A DNA stretch of 46,307 nt from Clostridium sp. Its GTDB lineage: Bacteria > Bacillota > Dethiobacteria > Dethiobacterales > Dethiobacteraceae. A program made the position numbers and the translations under genes. The notes below the pieces were generated by a model. The model worked only from the letters and a program-made list of their open reading frames with translations. It made no database searches and was not told the DNA's origin. Within the stretch, counting starts at the first letter, position 1. Each line of letters begins with the position of its first letter. Below, in pieces: positions 31,350-40,726 of the stretch. The DNA lies in NCBI GenBank assembly GCA_018335695.1, contig JAGXRV010000084.1:1-46307 (forward strand), in the 5' to 3' direction.

Positions 31350-31874
<525 letters not shown>

Positions 31875-31887
31875 GGAGGGCTGCCTG

Positions 31888-32487
31888 ATGTCAGGAGCCA
31901 ACAAGCTCAAGGAAAAGATTTTGGCTGAAGCCGGCAGTCAAGCGGCTGATGTTTTGGCTGATGCTCGCCAAAAATCGTCGGAGATCCTTGCAAGAGGCGA
32001 AGGAGAAGCTGCCGCCAAAAAGGTCAGTTTGCTGGAACAGGCGGCTGTTCAAGCCGGAGAGCGGCGGAGTCGCGCGCAGACAATTGCGGAGCTTGACGCC
32101 CGCAAAGCTATCTTGGCGGCTAAAGGAAAACTGATTGAGGATACTTTTCAGCAGGCGCTTACCCGTCTCAGTCTTCTTGATCAAAAGGCTTATCAGGATA
32201 TTCTTTTTAACATGCTCCTTGCTGCAGCACAAACCGGTGCTGAGGAAGTAATCGTTTCTCAGTCCGATCGCGCGCGGTTTACACCGGAATTCTTGGCTCG
32301 CGTCAATCAAGCACTGACCCAGCAGGGCAAAAAGGGAAAGTTGACTCTCTCCGCAGAAACGAGTGAAATGCAGGGTGGCTTTATCCTGCGCAGCGGAGAT
32401 GTGGAAATTAATAATTCCTTTGACTCCATTCTGGGGATACAACGCGACCAGTTGGAGCCGGAAGTGGCGGCAATCCTTTTCAGCTAA
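31888..32487 (+). CDS. ntpE: V-type ATPase subunit E
   Basis: 199 aa. N-terminal helix-rich stalk segment (about 5-110, pairing with the G/H subunit) and a C-terminal globular domain ending GGFILRSGDVEINNSFDSIL, typical of subunit E. ATG at 31888 with AAGGAGGG 7 nt upstream. Confidence 0.93.
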   Translation: MSGANKLKEKILAEAGSQAADVLADARQKSSEILARGEGEAAAKKVSLLEQAAVQAGERRSRAQTIAELDARKAILAAKGKLIEDTFQQALTRLSLLDQKAYQDILFNMLLAAAQTGAEEVIVSQSDRARFTPEFLARVNQALTQQGKKGKLTLSAETSEMQGGFILRSGDVEINNSFDSILGIQRDQLEPEVAAILFS

Positions 32488-32592
32488 AGATCTTAATATT
32501 GCTGGAGCGGAAAGAAGAAGAGGCAAATGCCGGCGTTGTCCGGCTCATCCCCTTCCGATAACCGGCCTCCGGCTCGAAAGGAGGCTTGGAGC

Positions 32593-33597
32593 GTGCCAAA
32601 TAATGACCGGTATGCCTATGCCGTCGGTCGGATCCGTGCTATGGAAACACGGCTTTTGGATCGCGGCAAAATTGATCGAATGGTTGAGGCCAGAAGCGCT
32701 GAAGAAGCGCTGAAGGTGCTGGGAGAGAGTGAATACGGCGAGTATCTGGCTGATCTTGGCAGTGTGCACCAGTTTGAAAAAATGCTGGATGCCGAGCTGC
32801 GCCGTATTTATCTGGAATTGCGCAAAATTTCCCCGGTGCCCGAGCTGATTAACCTTTTTGCTAAGAAATTCGACTATCACAATCTTAAAGTCTTAATTAA
32901 AGCAAACAAGCTGGCGGAAAAGCGCGATGAGCTGTTGGTGCCGGAAGTGGGGAATATTCCCTTGGCTGAACTGATTCGTGCCGTTGCCGATGATGATTAT
33001 CGTAATCTGCCTGCCCTTATGCGACAAGCGGCAGAAAAGCTTTCCGAGCTGCTTCGTCTGGATCCCGATCCACAGTTAGTGGGTCTGCTTTTGGACCGTG
33101 CCATGTATCAAGAGCTCGAAGACGCGGTAGATGCTCAGAAATCGCGGTTTTTAAAGGGTTATTTTACGAGTTTGGTCGATCTGCTGAATATCAAGACATT
33201 TTTGCGCGTCCGCCGTGCCAACCGTCCAAAGGATTTTCTGCAACAGGCATTATTGCCGAATGGTGATGTTGATATGAGCAAACTGGTGCAGTTGGTGGAG
33301 CCGCTGGAAGTGCTGGTGGATCGGCTGATGTTTAGCCCCTATGCCCAGGTGGTAGAGGAAGGGGTTCAGACGTATCAGAAAACTGATACGCTGACCCGTT
33401 ACGAAAAGCTGGCTGATGATCATCTGATTAAGTATGCGAAACAAGCTAAATATGTGACTTTTGGCCCGGAGCCGATTATTGGTTACCTGTTAGCCAAGGA
33501 AAGCGAAATCAAGATGATTCGCATTATAATGGTCGGTAAAATCAATCAGCTGCCTACCGAAGAGATCAAAGAAAGGTTACGTGATGTCTATGTATAA
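32593..33597 (+). CDS. ntpC: V-type ATPase subunit C
   Basis: 334 aa, mostly helical, the socket that links the central stalk to the K ring. Opening NDRYAYAVGRIRAMETRLLDRGKIDRM and the end YLLAKESEIKMIRIIMVGKINQLP match the family. GTG at 32593 chosen because AAAGGAGG lies 8 nt upstream; an in-frame ATG 22 codons earlier has no ribosome site. Overlaps ntpG. Confidence 0.93.
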   Translation: MPNNDRYAYAVGRIRAMETRLLDRGKIDRMVEARSAEEALKVLGESEYGEYLADLGSVHQFEKMLDAELRRIYLELRKISPVPELINLFAKKFDYHNLKVLIKANKLAEKRDELLVPEVGNIPLAELIRAVADDDYRNLPALMRQAAEKLSELLRLDPDPQLVGLLLDRAMYQELEDAVDAQKSRFLKGYFTSLVDLLNIKTFLRVRRANRPKDFLQQALLPNGDVDMSKLVQLVEPLEVLVDRLMFSPYAQVVEEGVQTYQKTDTLTRYEKLADDHLIKYAKQAKYVTFGPEPIIGYLLAKESEIKMIRIIMVGKINQLPTEEIKERLRDVYV

Positions 33598-33916
33598 GGT
33601 AGCGGTAGTTGGCGATAAAAACTCCATCTTGGGTTTTAAAGCGCTTGGCGTCGCCACATATCCGGTTACCGGCGGTGACGAAGCGGCCCGTGCGCTAAGC
33701 GAAATTGTGCGGGAAAAAGTTGCTGTTATTTGCATTACTGAAGCCGTGGCGGAACAGGTTCAACCGCAGCTGGAAGAGCTTAATAAAAGGCTTCTGCCGG
33801 CAGTCGTACTCATCCCAAATAACCAAGGATCTTTGGGTCTGGGGATGATGCAGATCAAGAAGAATGCAGAAAAAGCCATTGGCGCTGATATCTTATTTGG
33901 GAAAGAGGGTAGTTAG
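33584..33916 (+). CDS. ntpG: V-type ATPase subunit F (NtpG), central stalk
   Basis: 110 aa. Rossmann-like small stalk protein: [21 protein letters not shown] at the N-terminus and [12 protein letters not shown] later are family motifs. The start is uncertain among GTG 33581, ATG 33584 and ATG 33590; AAAGG at 33572-33576 is best placed for 33584. Overlaps the end of ntpC. Confidence 0.92.
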
Positions 33917-33918
33917 CT

Positions 33919-35712
33919 TTGACCAATACGGAAAATGTGGGTAAAATCGTCAAGGTTTCCGGCCCGCTTGTCGTCGCCGAAAACATGACGGGCGCCAAGA
34001 TGTTTGACGTGGTACGCGTCAGCGACAAGCGGCTGATTGGTGAAATTATCGAAGTGCGTGGAGATCGTGCCTCTATTCAGGTCTACGAAGAAACAAGCGG
34101 ACTTGGCCCCGGCGAGCCGGTATATTCAACCGGCCTTCCGTTAAGTGTGGAATTGGGCCCTGGTCTGATCGAGTCGATTTACGACGGCATTCAACGCCCC
34201 TTGGATGAAATTTTTAACCAGATCGGCGCAAGGATTGCCCGTGGTGTTGAGGTGGAATCTTTAAATCGTCACAAGAAATGGAACTTTGTGGCTACTGCAA
34301 AAGTGGGCGATGATGTACAAGCCGGAGACATTCTGGGCACTGTTCAGGAAACAACACTGGTTCTCCACAAAATTATGGTTCCGCCCGGTGTGAGCGGCAA
34401 GATTTCATTTCTCCATAACGGGGAAGCCACTGTAGTAGACACCATCGCCAAACTTGAAAAAGACGGCAAGACGACAGAGGTACAGATGATGCAAAAATGG
34501 CCTGTGCGCAGAGGCCGTCCCTACACAGAGAAACTCTCCCCCAATGAACCGCTCTTGACCGGGCAGCGGGTTGTGGACATGTTCTTCCCTGTAGCCAAAG
34601 GAGGCACAGCCTGTATCCCAGGTCCCTTCGGTTCCGGTAAAACTGTAACGCAGCACCAGTTGGCCAAGTGGGCCGACGCGGAAATAGTTGTTTATGTCGG
34701 CTGCGGCGAGCGGGGCAACGAAATGACTGACGTGCTCAACGAATTTCCTGAACTAAAGGACCCTAAATCGGGTGAGCCTTTGATGAAGCGGACAGTGTTG
34801 ATTGCCAACACATCTGATATGCCCGTGGCCGCGCGCGAAGCTTCGATTTACACCGGAATCACCTTGGCTGAATATTTCCGTGATATGGGCTATTCAGTGG
34901 CGCTGATGGCAGACTCCACCTCCCGCTGGGCAGAGGCGCTTCGCGAGATGTCCGGTCGTCTGGAAGAGATGCCTGGTGAAGAAGGCTATCCGGCCTACCT
35001 TGGTTCGCGTGTCGCCGAGTTTTATGAGCGGGCCGGTAAAGTAACTTGCCTTGGCAGTGATGGACGCATTGGCGCCTTAACAGCCGTAGGAGCCGTATCT
35101 CCCCCCGGCGGTGACCTCTCAGAGCCGGTGTCGCAGAATACTCTGCGAATCGTCAAAGTTTTCTGGGGCTTGGACGCCGCCCTTGCCTACCGTCGTCACT
35201 TCCCGGCGATTAACTGGCTTTTGTCTTACTCGCTTTATACGGACACCTTTGATGATTTCTATCGCAATAATTTAGGCAGCGAGTGGGTAGATTTGCGCAG
35301 CGAAGCGATGCGAATTTTACAGGAAGAAGCTGAACTGGAAGAAATTGTGCGTTTAGTCGGCGTTGATGCCCTTTCTCAAAAGGAGCGCCTCGTCCTGGAG
35401 ACTGCCAAGTCCGTTAGGGAAGACTTTTTGCACCAGAACTCCTTCCATGAAGTAGACACTTATGCGTCACTGGAAAAACAGTTCAAGATGATTAAACTGA
35501 TTATGGCATTTCATCATGAGGCAAAACGGGCCACTGAACGGGGCGCTAACCTCTTAGAGATTCTAAACCTTCCTGTTCGTGATCAAATCGCCCGTGCCCG
35601 TTACTTGGCGGAAAGCGATATGGCTCAGATAGATAAAATTGAAGCTGCCCTGAAGGAGCAGATTGCCGGTCTTACCGCCGGTGGCGACGACTTCGAGCAG
35701 CAGTACGCGTAG
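33919..35712 (+). CDS. ntpA: V-type ATPase catalytic subunit A
   Basis: 597 aa ATP-hydrolysing subunit. Walker A GPFGSGKT is at 235-242, followed by the [11 protein letters not shown] segment, [16 protein letters not shown] (Walker B region) and the A-subunit-specific insertion around residues 110-200. TTG start with GAGGG upstream. Confidence 0.97.
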
Positions 35713-35728
35713 GGAAGGAGGAGCCACC

Positions 35729-37108
35729 ATGCAAAAAGAGTATCGTACCGTTTCGGAGATTATCGGCCCCTTGATGCTAGTTGAACAGGTGGAAGGCATC
35801 AAATTTGGCGAACTTGCCGAAATCGAATTAAAAGATGGTTCAACGCGCCGCGGTCGCGTGTTGGAGGTAAGTGACGACAAAGCGCTCGTTCAGATTTTTG
35901 AAGGCACGAGCGGGATGAGTGTAAGCGGCTCAAAAGTTCGCTTCCTGAGCAAAGGGATTGAATTGCCGGTATCCATGGATATGCTGGGGCGCGTTTTTGA
36001 CGGTCTGGGGCGTCCCCGGGATAATGGGCCTAAAATTATTCCCGAGCAGCGTCTTGATATTAACGGTTTGCCGCTGAACCCTTATGCGCGTAACTTTCCG
36101 TCAGAGTTTATTCAGACGGGAGTTTCTACGATTGATGGCCTGAATACTTTGGTGCGGGGACAAAAGTTGCCTATTTTCTCAGGCTCCGGATTGCCTCACA
36201 ACCGTTTGGCGGCGCAGATTGCCCGTCAGGCTAAGGTGCTCGGAGGAGAAGGTAAATTTGCTTTGGTGTTTGCTGCCATGGGGATTACCTTTGAAGAAGC
36301 CGACTTCTTCATCTCCGACTTCCGGAAAACGGGTGCTATCGATCGCTCCGTCCTGTTTATCAACTTGGCGGACGACCCGGCCATTGAGCGGATTGCCACC
36401 CCGCGGATGGCGCTTACCTGTGCTGAATATCTGGCGTATGAAAAAGGGATGCATGTTCTCGTTATCTTGACGGATTTGACTAACTATGCCGAGGCGTTGC
36501 GTGAGATTTCCGCCGCCCGCAAAGAAGTGCCGGGTCGCCGCGGCTATCCGGGCTACCTTTATACCGACTTGGCTACGCTCTATGAACGCGCCGGCAGGAT
36601 CCGTGACCGCGAAGGCTCTATTACCCAGATCCCGATCCTTACCATGCCGGAGGATGACAAGACACATCCGATTCCCGATCTTACCGGTTACATTACGGAA
36701 GGACAGATTATGCTTAACCGTTCTTTGAACCGGAAAGGTATCTATCCGCCCGTAGACGTCCTGCCCTCCCTTTCCCGTTTGAAGGATAAAGGGATTGGCA
36801 AAGGCAAGACCCGTGAAGACCATGCCGACGTTTTAAACCAGCTTTACGCTGCTTATGCGCGTGGTAAAGAGGCAAAAGAACTGGCGGCAATTCTCGGTGA
36901 AGCGGCACTCAGCAGTTCCGACAAGATGTTTGCCCGTTTTGCCGATGAGTTTGAAAACCGCTATATTAAGCAGGGCGAAAATGAGAACCGCAGCATTGTG
37001 GATACGCTCACAATTGGTTGGGATCTGCTGGCTCTGCTGCCTCGCACGGAACTGAAACGTGTTCGCGATGAGTATCTGGAAAAGTACCTGCCCGTTAAGG
37101 GGGAGTAA
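35729..37108 (+). CDS. ntpB: V-type ATPase regulatory subunit B
   Basis: 459 aa non-catalytic nucleotide-binding subunit alternating with A in the head. A degenerate P-loop ([18 protein letters not shown]) replaces Walker [22 protein letters not shown] and [19 protein letters not shown] are B-subunit motifs. ATG at 35729 has GGAAGGAGG 8 nt before it; the in-frame codons upstream lie inside ntpA. Confidence 0.97.
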
Positions 37109-37111
37109 GGT

Positions 37112-37750
37112 GTGGAAATCCGCGTAAACCCTACAAGGATGGAGTTTAACCGTCTTAAAGGACGGCTCAAAATGGCTCAGCGCGGCCACAAACTTCTTAA
37201 AGATAAGCGCGATGAGTTGATGCGCGTTTTCCTTAAATTAATTCGGGAAAATAAGGAATTGCGCACCAGTGTGGAAAAAGAGCTTTCCCGTTCTTTTGCC
37301 AATTTCCTCTTGGCGAGTGCTGTGATGTCGGGGGAAACGCTGGAAGAAGCGATTATGTATCCTAAAGCGGCCGTGAAAGTAGACGTAAAAACGAAGAATG
37401 TGATGAGCGTGCATGTCCCGCAAATCACCAACTTGGAAGATAAGGAGACCGAAGGCGATGCTACGCCATACGGGTTTGCCAATACTTCCGGGGAGCTGGA
37501 TTCTTCTATTGACACGTTAGCCAAAGTGTTGCCGCACTTGATCCGCTTGGCTGAGCTGGAAAAGGCGGTCTACCTGCTGGCGGATGAGATTGATAAAACT
37601 CGCCGCCGTGTTAACGCTTTGGAGCACGTCCTCATTCCGCAACTTCAGCATACAATTAAGTATATCAGCATGAAGTTGGATGAAAACGAGCGGGGCGCGT
37701 TAGTTCGACTGATGAAAATCAAAGATATTGTCCGCGGAGATAAAAAATAA
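37112..37750 (+). CDS. ntpD: V-type ATPase subunit D, central rotor shaft
   Basis: 212 aa. N-terminal VNPTRMEFNRLKGRLKMAQRGHKLLKDKRDEL (two long antiparallel helices with the C-terminal half, KTRRRVNALEHVLIPQL) is diagnostic. GTG start 3 nt after the ntpB stop. Last gene of the operon, closed by a long hairpin. Confidence 0.96.
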   Translation: MEIRVNPTRMEFNRLKGRLKMAQRGHKLLKDKRDELMRVFLKLIRENKELRTSVEKELSRSFANFLLASAVMSGETLEEAIMYPKAAVKVDVKTKNVMSVHVPQITNLEDKETEGDATPYGFANTSGELDSSIDTLAKVLPHLIRLAELEKAVYLLADEIDKTRRRVNALEHVLIPQLQHTIKYISMKLDENERGALVRLMKIKDIVRGDKK

Positions 37751-37811: not shown

Positions 37812-38423
37812 CTATTGGAGAGAAACGTCATTATGGCAGGCAAGTGCTTTGAAATGCCAGAGAATATCTTGTATGTGTTGGAGCATTTGCAGGTAGATTA
37901 CAGACGCCTTAGGATGACAAACGTTTTTGCAGAGACGGTCTTCATGAGTCAGAGTACTGTTAGCGGCATAACTCCGCAGTTCTTCCACCTCTTTTTCAAC
38001 ATGCTTTTCAATCAGCTCATTGCAGGTGCGCAAAGCATCAGCCACATGCGGTAATAAGTCGCTGCTTCGCTTTAACAGCCCGCTCATTTCCGTCATCGCC
38101 TCCTCACTGAAGAGGACTTTATTCTTGACCTTGTTTTCCACATGGTCAGTCAAGCGTAAAACATTATAGAAAATTTTACTTAGGTTAATTGTAATGCCTT
38201 GAATAGTTAGTGCTTCAGCAGGACTTAACTCTCCCGGTGTTTCTGAAAGCACTACGAGGGACTTGCGGATCAGTTTGGCTGAATCATCAGTGGCTTGTTT
38301 GTATTTCAAGGACAAGCGGCGCTGTGTAAAGGCGGTATTTATTTCGGTAAACATTTCGCCAAGCTCTGTAATTAATTGCTCTAAGGCGGCAGTGGCAGAG
38401 GTATTCACAATTTTCTGTCTCAT
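37812..38423 (-). CDS. Helical PhoU-like protein of uncertain function
   Basis: 203 aa, all-helical by composition, no membrane segment. The pattern of amphipathic helices and the stretch ITINLSKIFYNVLRLTDHVENKV resemble PhoU domains, which bind metal clusters and modulate phosphate transporters or kinases; the resemblance is weak. GAGGAGG lies 6 nt before the ATG and a minus-strand TATAAT is at 38491-38496. It heads its own short transcript, ending at the 37757-37802 palindrome. Confidence 0.6.
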   Translation of the reverse strand: MRQKIVNTSATAALEQLITELGEMFTEINTAFTQRRLSLKYKQATDDSAKLIRKSLVVLSETPGELSPAEALTIQGITINLSKIFYNVLRLTDHVENKVKNKVLFSEEAMTEMSGLLKRSSDLLPHVADALRTCNELIEKHVEKEVEELRSYAANSTLTHEDRLCKNVCHPKASVIYLQMLQHIQDILWHFKALACHNDVSLQ

Positions 38424-38568: not shown

Positions 38569-40443
38569 CTAATAGTAGTACCATATGCTCCTGTAATCCT
38601 TATAGTCTTCTCCCCGACGTTCCATTGTGCTTAGAAAATTAAGCACCGGCACATCTTTGTGCAAATAAGGACTGCTTTCAGCAGTACTGTGATCCCAGGG
38701 ATAAAATTCATACAGGCGAGAGCCGTCAGGGAGAATCATAATCACATCATAGTCCTGACCGGCTCGGAGATAATTTTTGCCAAGCCGTGGAATATTGAAA
38801 ACAGCCTCATCAGTACGATCCAAGCCTGGGTTTAACCGCGCCTCCTCAGCCTGTTCCTGCAGTAGGCGGGCAATAGGAACCCTATAGGCGCCGGTTTCTT
38901 CTTTGCCTTTAGCATTAAAAGTGTAATATGGTTCGACGCCAATTAAGCGTAGGTTCTTACGTAGTGCAGCCATTTCAAACCTGCGGGCGTTCTCGTAAGT
39001 AAAAACGGCTTGATTGTATACCGGTACGCCCCTTCGCCGAAGCCTTTGGACAGCCTCCATTGCATCCGGAGTCACTTCATAAGAGTGTTCAAAGTGAGTC
39101 ATTACCGCTATCTCCCGGCGACCGGGGACATGGTAAGAGCTAATCATGTCAACAAATTCAATTGTGAAACGCATGGGTAATACTACCGGTAGCCTGGTGC
39201 CAATTCTGACCCTGTCAATATGGTCCATTTCAGCAAGCCTATCCAGCAGGTCTTTCATCTTGTGGTCAGGCATGATTCCAGGGTCTCCTCCGGTAATAAG
39301 TACCTCAGTTATTTCCGGACGCCGAGCCAGCCAGTTTAAAGCGCGATTCAAAACATCTTCCGGATACTCCGCACCTTTATCCATTACATCTGTAATTTCC
39401 CAGTTGCGCTGGCAGTACACACATATCTGGGCACAAGTGTTATAGGGTTTCAAAATTGCTATCATAGGGTAGCGCCTGGTGATAAGTGACTCAGGAGAGG
39501 TATCATGTTCACCCATGAAGTCAAGCGATTTGACAGGAGCCTTACGCAAAGCAGGTACTAGCGTGCTATAATCTAGCGGTGGCAAAACCTGAGCCCGCAG
39601 GGCGTGGTCCCTTTTGCGGCTGTTCTCAAAGTCCATTAAGGAAACATAGTACGGAGTAATGCCAAAAGGCAGCCCTGCTTCCCTTACTGATCGGACGGCT
39701 TGCTCCTCGTCAGGCGTGAGGGAGATAAGGTTTGTTAAAGTGTCAATGTCTCTAATGACATGCCGGCAGTGCCATGCCCAGTCAGCCCACTCCTCTTCAC
39801 CGGCATCAAAATACTGCATAATCCGCTCTCTGTTTAAATTCCGGCGATTAATCGTTTCCAGGTCAAGTCCTGATGGATAGCGGGACATCCACAATTTCGC
39901 CCGCATGGACATATCGTCCAGTACGGCCGACCTGCTAGTAGATTTAGCTCTGGAATCAGTCTCTTCCAAGCTGGCACGTTGAAAGCGCGGTCTCTCAAAA
40001 AGCCGTGTTTTTTCCTTCATAGCAAGGAAGAGATGCCTCAACTCTTCAACAAAGGCGGTATGCACATATATCTCTTGAAGATGGACAAGCTTTATCAGGG
40101 TGCTCAGGACACTAAATCCAGTCAGCTCCTCGCTTCGCTTGGCAAATATATTTTTCAGAACATTTAGGGCACGGCGGGCTAACTCTCTGTCCATAGAATG
40201 GTCACGATCGAGGGAATTAAGTAGCTTTTTCTCGTATTTGCCCAGATAATTTTCGATTTTCTTACGGGTTGCTTCAGGATTGATGCTTTCCTGAACAAGT
40301 TGGTGGAAAACGGGGTTCTCCTCCCAGAATAGTTTCAATCGCTTGCGGCCTATAAACTCGTCTTTTTTTAAATCGCCTGTGATTTGTGCCAGATTAAGAA
40401 GTTCTCCGGTGTCTTTAAGTAAATTACAGATGTTTTGACTCAC
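38569..40443 (-). CDS. Radical SAM aminomutase, glutamate 2,3-aminomutase-like (KamA family)
   Basis: 624 aa. AdoMet- and PLP-dependent 1,2-amino migration. The [4Fe-4S] motif is CAQICVYC (Cys337, 341, 344), then GGDPG and GTRLPVVLP as in lysine 2,3-aminomutase (KAM). PLP lysine is Lys556 in IPRLGKN. The two KAM residues that hold the lysine side chain (Asp293, Asp330) align with Lys512 (YYTFNAK) and Asn550 (FNIP), the replacement reported for C. difficile glutamate 2,3-aminomutase. KAM homology begins near residue 220, so about 200 N-terminal residues are an extra helical domain. I chose GTG 40443 (AAGGGGG 6 nt upstream); the longer frame to 40533 runs through the riboswitch terminator. Confidence 0.85.
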   Translation of the reverse strand: MSQNICNLLKDTGELLNLAQITGDLKKDEFIGRKRLKLFWEENPVFHQLVQESINPEATRKKIENYLGKYEKKLLNSLDRDHSMDRELARRALNVLKNIFAKRSEELTGFSVLSTLIKLVHLQEIYVHTAFVEELRHLFLAMKEKTRLFERPRFQRASLEETDSRAKSTSRSAVLDDMSMRAKLWMSRYPSGLDLETINRRNLNRERIMQYFDAGEEEWADWAWHCRHVIRDIDTLTNLISLTPDEEQAVRSVREAGLPFGITPYYVSLMDFENSRKRDHALRAQVLPPLDYSTLVPALRKAPVKSLDFMGEHDTSPESLITRRYPMIAILKPYNTCAQICVYCQRNWEITDVMDKGAEYPEDVLNRALNWLARRPEITEVLITGGDPGIMPDHKMKDLLDRLAEMDHIDRVRIGTRLPVVLPMRFTIEFVDMISSYHVPGRREIAVMTHFEHSYEVTPDAMEAVQRLRRRGVPVYNQAVFTYENARRFEMAALRKNLRLIGVEPYYTFNAKGKEETGAYRVPIARLLQEQAEEARLNPGLDRTDEAVFNIPRLGKNYLRAGQDYDVIMILPDGSRLYEFYPWDHSTAESSPYLHKDVPVLNFLSTMERRGEDYKDYRSIWYYY

Positions 40444-40495
40444 AATAATCCCCCTTCGCAATTTGTCGTCAGGTGAAATGTGAGGCGCATGAAAT

Positions 40496-40520
40496 AAAAA
40501 ACTCAGGCGAGGTCCTGAGT
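40496..40520 (-). terminator. Riboswitch-controlled intrinsic terminator
   Basis: Minus strand: ACTCAGG (40514-40520), loop ACCTCG, CCTGAGT (40501-40507), then T-run (40496-40500), 52 nt before the aminomutase GTG. The loop side GACCTC can instead pair with GAGGTC at 40544-40549, a possible antiterminator. Confidence 0.85.
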
Positions 40521-40552
40521 TGATTATTTTCAAAAAAACATGCGACCTCTTT

Positions 40553-40680
40553 CTTCACGCTTACGAGGTTAGCTGACGGATTCGGGTTGAAAGAGATAAC
40601 CCTACTCATAACAAATGAGATTCACCCCAATAAAGTGGTTCCCCCGCTTCTTGCCCAGACAAGAACTCAGCGCTTTTTCA
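40553..40680 (-). ncRNA. c-di-AMP riboswitch (ydaO/yuaA leader)
   Basis: Read on the minus strand the conserved blocks occur in order: GCGCTGAG, GCGGGGGAACC, GGGGTGAATC, TAGGG, CAACCCGAATCCGTCAGC, TAACCTCGTAAGCG. These are the signature sequences of the ydaO-yuaA class, which binds c-di-AMP and normally switches expression off by favouring termination. It is followed directly by the terminator and the aminomutase gene. Confidence 0.93.
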
Positions 40681-40697
40681 TCTATTAAATTAACTTC

Positions 40698-40726
40698 AGT
40701 TTATACCAATTGAAGCCTCTTGTCAA
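40698..40726 (-). promoter_or_regulatory. Sigma-A promoter for the riboswitch-aminomutase transcript
   Basis: Minus strand TTGACA (40721-40726), 17 nt spacer, TAAACT (40698-40703). Transcription would begin about 10 nt before the riboswitch. Confidence 0.7.

Follow-up and report, generated by a model that had tools for sequence, protein, structure and literature searches.

Described aminomutase riboswitches and the window locus

The second messenger c-di-AMP is known mainly for turning off K+ uptake, osmolyte uptake and wall hydrolases. The closest described counterpart of the locus reported here is the lysine 2,3-aminomutase (LAM) of Dehalobacter sp. CF, which carries a tandem Na+-I/c-di-AMP riboswitch that responds to Na+ and c-di-AMP in vitro; eam (beta-glutamate) is also named among the targets of Na+ riboswitches (White et al. 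2022, PMC9337991). When non-subscription full texts were searched for c-di-AMP together with aminomutase or beta-glutamate, this study was the sole relevant match. The window (the whole stretch of 46,307 nucleotides that was analyzed) resembles the Dehalobacter system in having a c-di-AMP aptamer and a terminator before a KamA-family gene for a putative osmolyte precursor. In contrast to Dehalobacter, where a Na+ riboswitch leads the tandem and a true LAM is encoded, the window has no Na+ riboswitch and encodes a Lys/Asn enzyme resembling glutamate 2,3-aminomutase (EAM). The first-pass annotation of this DNA regarded the pairing as undescribed, a view refuted in part by the published tandem switch on LAM and by eam under Na+ riboswitches (PMC9337991). 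The observation is real and conserved, and it is partly anticipated in print. Three points are new as far as the literature searched shows: the switch precedes an uncharacterised clade in all cases that could be tested, there is evidence that this clade replaces canonical EAM, and c-di-AMP riboswitches occur broadly on EAM genes.

A covariance search with Rfam models upheld the earlier riboswitch call, returning the c-di-AMP aptamer (RF00379, ydaO/yuaA) at 40542..40682 (-) with 107.6 bits (gathering score 38 bits) and an E-value of 8e-25. The match is full length (model positions 1-134 of 134), is the only Rfam match that cmscan reported in the whole window and is the only RF00379 match in its own 2.35 Mb genome. 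The order of promoter, riboswitch, terminator and radical SAM gene on the minus strand was likewise confirmed, the earlier coordinates being right within about 11 nt. The sigma-70-type promoter-like site, TTGACA-17-TAAACT, lies at 40698..40726 (-) with 10 of 12 matches; shuffled versions of the region contain a mean of 1.2 sites of this quality, so that, taken by itself, the promoter is weak evidence. An intrinsic terminator, AACTCAGG-ACCTCG-CCTGAGTT-TTTTATTT, is located 3' of the aptamer at 40500..40521 (-) and has the strong stem and T run of an OFF expression platform. Terminator-like stems were also found 3' of the aptamer in the leaders of clade relatives, the pick for locus L043 being doubtful. 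The 5' arm and loop of the window terminator contain GACCUC, and the 3' tail of the aptamer holds GAGGUC (40544..40549 (-)), the exact complement of 40514-40509. This tail is a candidate antiterminator half that could pair with the terminator, over 6 bp only; the antiterminator search took in 6 of 11 clade leaders. Folding of the whole leader RNA was no better than that of shuffled sequences (z -0.71), which can occur when an aptamer is held by tertiary contacts, and the covariance score is the evidence here. The window RNA is no different from the rest of the ydaO/yuaA class, with which it shares a full consensus aptamer and a terminator-type platform, and the unusual part is the target gene only. 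By analogy with this known class, the leader would bind c-di-AMP and act in the OFF direction.

The gene itself occupies 38569..40443 (-) and encodes a KamA-family radical SAM protein of 624 aa, a probable EAM analogue. Its likely start is the GTG at 40443, which lies 3' of AAGGGGG and with which relatives agree. An open reading frame from TTG 40533 is unlikely because its start would precede the terminator.

The encoded enzyme and its active site

With 310.6 bits, the 624-aa product exceeds the cut-off of the KamA-family model TIGR00238 (199.2 bits), and it also passes the general radical SAM model. Its CxxxCxxC [4Fe-4S]/SAM motif (C337, C341 and C344, context NTCAQICVYCQRNWE, 39412..39435 (-)) aligns to C125/C129/C132 of LAM. 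The protein scores far below the equivalog cut-offs for EAM (TIGR04368, 227.5 bits, cut-off 650), LAM (TIGR03820, 192 bits, cut-off 525.4) and arginine 2,3-aminomutase. All eight clade members scanned with TIGR04368 match as distant relatives only. In an unrooted tree, the clade members group together with 100% support, and the branch leading to them is very long (about 6 changes per column). Because the EAM cut-off was failed and the clade stands deep and on its own, the term 'glutamate 2,3-aminomutase-like', given to the enzyme in the first-pass annotation, is to be read as a functional inference. In this sense it holds up, backed by the active site and by complementarity to canonical EAM in genome distribution, whereas formal membership of the EAM family does not.

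The active-site pair is of EAM type. Lys512 (38908..38910 (-)) aligns without gaps to Asp293 of LAM, a position that is Lys in EAM-type proteins, and Asn550 (38794..38796 (-)) lines up with the Asn that EAM has in place of LAM Asp330, so that Lys and Asn replace the two lysine-binding aspartates. Both residues are conserved across the whole clade, and the C. difficile EAM likewise differs from LAM by Lys and Asn at these positions. The candidate PLP lysine (LAM Lys337) is Lys556 (38776..38778 (-)) in IPRLGK, and 6 residues are deleted before it. Profile matching favors EAM (34% identity, E 7e-67) over LAM (30% identity, E 3e-52). Of the 28 EAM/LAM-diagnostic columns, 12 show the EAM state in the window protein, 2 the LAM state and 14 neither, and the protein keeps only 56 of the 98 columns that are invariant between the two families. 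Beyond the Lys/Asn pair at the substrate side chain, it has in common with EAM the CQR after the cluster cysteines, the PLP lysine and an RF00379 leader, which is frequent before EAM genes. It differs from EAM in its low identity (about 29%), sub-cut-off score, 190-aa N-terminal extension and altered PLP-lysine loop, and in having YPMI for YPDR. With LAM it shares the radical SAM barrel, the cluster motif and the PLP lysine. The only solved relative is the LAM structure PDB 2a5h, to which the alignment begins at residue 207; the three cluster cysteines and the equivalents of Arg112, Tyr113, Arg134 and Gln258 are kept, whereas Arg116 has become Ile328 and His131 has become Tyr343.

Residues 1-190 (39874..40443 (-)) form an N-terminal domain that is conserved in the clade and belongs to no known family. 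Searches of Pfam and PDB found no relatives of this domain, and a structure predicted from four sequences (pLDDT 44.5) was too poor for a fold search. Such an extension could serve to bind a target if the enzyme were a radical SAM modifier of a protein or peptide instead of a mutase of free amino acids, and the lost Arg116 equivalent would fit, as would the fact that EpmB, which acts on EF-P, belongs to the KamA superfamily. We consider this improbable, given that the EpmB model scores far lower (122 bits of 369), that the PLP lysine, Lys512 and Asn550 are conserved and that the neighborhoods read showed no conserved partner gene.

Distribution of the clade, canonical EAM and the switch

The clade of ~620-aa proteins is present in 12 of 398 genomes of the phylum, distributed among four family-level groups. 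RF00379 lies directly upstream and on the same strand in all members with enough upstream sequence (11/11, from 3 family-level groups); the twelfth was left out of this count because only 201 nt of its contig lie upstream of the gene. Identity to the window protein drops to 56-60% for clade members of the other lineages, which indicates that the pairing with the riboswitch is old. The nearest named relative, Dethiobacter sp. CROMO_SB3, has 95% protein identity and the same riboswitch. The Na+ riboswitch RF03071 was not found upstream in the window or in the clade loci, and thus none of them has the tandem Na+/c-di-AMP arrangement. One genome (L062, G390:C1:2213500-2223500) carries a long-clade gene and a true LAM gene about 4 kb apart, each with its own c-di-AMP riboswitch.

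Canonical EAM above the cut-off was found in 135 of 398 genomes overall and in 0 of the 12 clade genomes, a sample of four family-level lineages with incomplete MAGs among them (hypergeometric P 0.006, kinship ignored). In the Thermincola-type family, 7 of 9 genomes have the clade gene and exactly the remaining two have canonical EAM. Most genomes in the class of the window carry KamA genes, and those fetched show EAM-type Lys/Asn motifs; the window genome has the clade enzyme as its only KamA gene. This pattern is evidence that the clade enzyme may be a divergent functional replacement for canonical EAM, and replacement is part of the best explanation. It bears on a competing possibility, namely a c-di-AMP-controlled KamA aminomutase that acts on another acidic or polar substrate (e.g. 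aspartate, glutamine or a glutamate derivative) and yields a different beta-amino acid solute. The deep branch, the changed PLP-lysine loop and the missed cut-offs of all three substrate-assigned families would suit such an enzyme. Retention of the Lys/Asn pair by all clade members and the replacement of canonical EAM in related genomes argue the other way, and we regard a different substrate as unlikely, if the most serious of the alternatives.

Other KamA-family genes also follow the riboswitch. At least 43 canonical EAM genes lie directly 3' of RF00379 on the same strand, against about 0.006 expected by chance, as counted by joining the 150 best riboswitch matches with 141 listed canonical EAM genes. 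The median gap of the joined pairs is 142 nt and none has the wrong orientation. Sampling of further EAM leaders added the riboswitch in 14 of 40, and one more EAM-type gene with RF00379 was found at L035. Overall, the scan of other genomes for ydaO matches near KamA-family genes bore out the pairing well beyond the 11 testable clade members: the riboswitch precedes at least 57 canonical EAM genes, which belong to no fewer than 18 family-level groups (families counted by hand from labels), and in six inspected genomes it precedes true LAM genes. One of the latter (L052, Asp/Asp) has RF03071 and RF00379 in tandem, as in the published arrangement. Since the switch precedes standard EAM and LAM genes in many related bacteria, synthesis of salt-stress solutes looks like a common c-di-AMP target. 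The LAM cases lend something to the idea that the window gene is itself a LAM feeding N-acetyl-beta-lysine synthesis, similar to the Dehalobacter circuit. We think this very improbable: both lysine-binding aspartates are replaced and no acetyltransferase lies beside the window gene. Furthermore, 9 of the 12 clade genomes hold separate LAM genes, which implies a different role for the clade enzyme.

The window gene is best explained as a monocistronic unit for osmolyte synthesis that a c-di-AMP riboswitch of OFF type controls, and its enzyme probably makes beta-glutamate from L-glutamate. A diadenylate cyclase (c-di-AMP synthase) gene is present in the window genome, so c-di-AMP can be made. 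At high c-di-AMP, when K+ and turgor are sufficient, the aptamer would fold and the terminator at 40521-40500 would halt transcription; under hyperosmotic demand c-di-AMP would fall and RNA polymerase would read through. The resulting radical SAM/PLP aminomutase would then convert L-glutamate to beta-glutamate, which would presumably serve as a compatible solute. The earlier proposal that low c-di-AMP releases beta-glutamate synthesis is well supported by the OFF-type layout, the active-site residues and the complementarity with EAM, while glutamate as the substrate is what we infer from sequence.

More tentatively, and with less confidence than for the window gene itself, c-di-AMP riboswitch control of beta-glutamate synthesis might be a widespread circuit of osmoadaptation in many Bacillota-type families, for which two or more non-equivalent enzymes (among them canonical EAM and the long KamA clade) were recruited, the N-terminal domain of the clade adding a second layer of control. 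If true, dozens of genera would have a riboswitch on their own synthesis of beta-amino acids, compatible-solute synthesis would be a main output of c-di-AMP, and EAM genes in anaerobes would be given a function. It would also draw attention to a radical SAM clade that has gone unstudied and for which the predicted substrate is clear.

Other riboswitch targets and neighboring genes

Elsewhere in the class, most RF00379 riboswitches stand before genes for secreted proteins that resemble wall hydrolases (30/41 in one similarity group); on reading, these appear LysM- and SleB-like. Further targets include a betaine-type ABC transporter and a K+/H+ antiporter; the company of RF00379 targets in this class is osmotic. 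In the same class, RF00379 precedes an aconitase gene followed by isocitrate dehydrogenase. Another target is a homocitrate-synthase-like gene that may encode a Re-citrate synthase; downstream of it lie a gene resembling isocitrate dehydrogenase and one for canonical EAM. These targets suggest that c-di-AMP controls glutamate supply as well; no paper linking a c-di-AMP riboswitch to citrate synthase came up in a full-text literature search. The RF00379 matches before these genes are strong and lie at L150 (G073:C12:5000-11500), L154, L155 and L152 (G058:C13).

Around the window gene, a glutamate-synthase-domain protein (PF01645, 42205-43875 (-)) is encoded near the predicted glutamate aminomutase, outside its transcript. 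The long KamA gene is adjoined by a gene for a PhoU-like protein (37812-38423 (-)) that belongs to no Pfam or NCBIfam family, and a 32.5% identical PhoU-like protein is encoded near the long KamA gene of UBA2595 (L033 1803-2504 (+)). Just past the PhoU-like gene in the window, reading of the open reading frames indicates a V-type ATP synthase operon (31864-37750 (+)).
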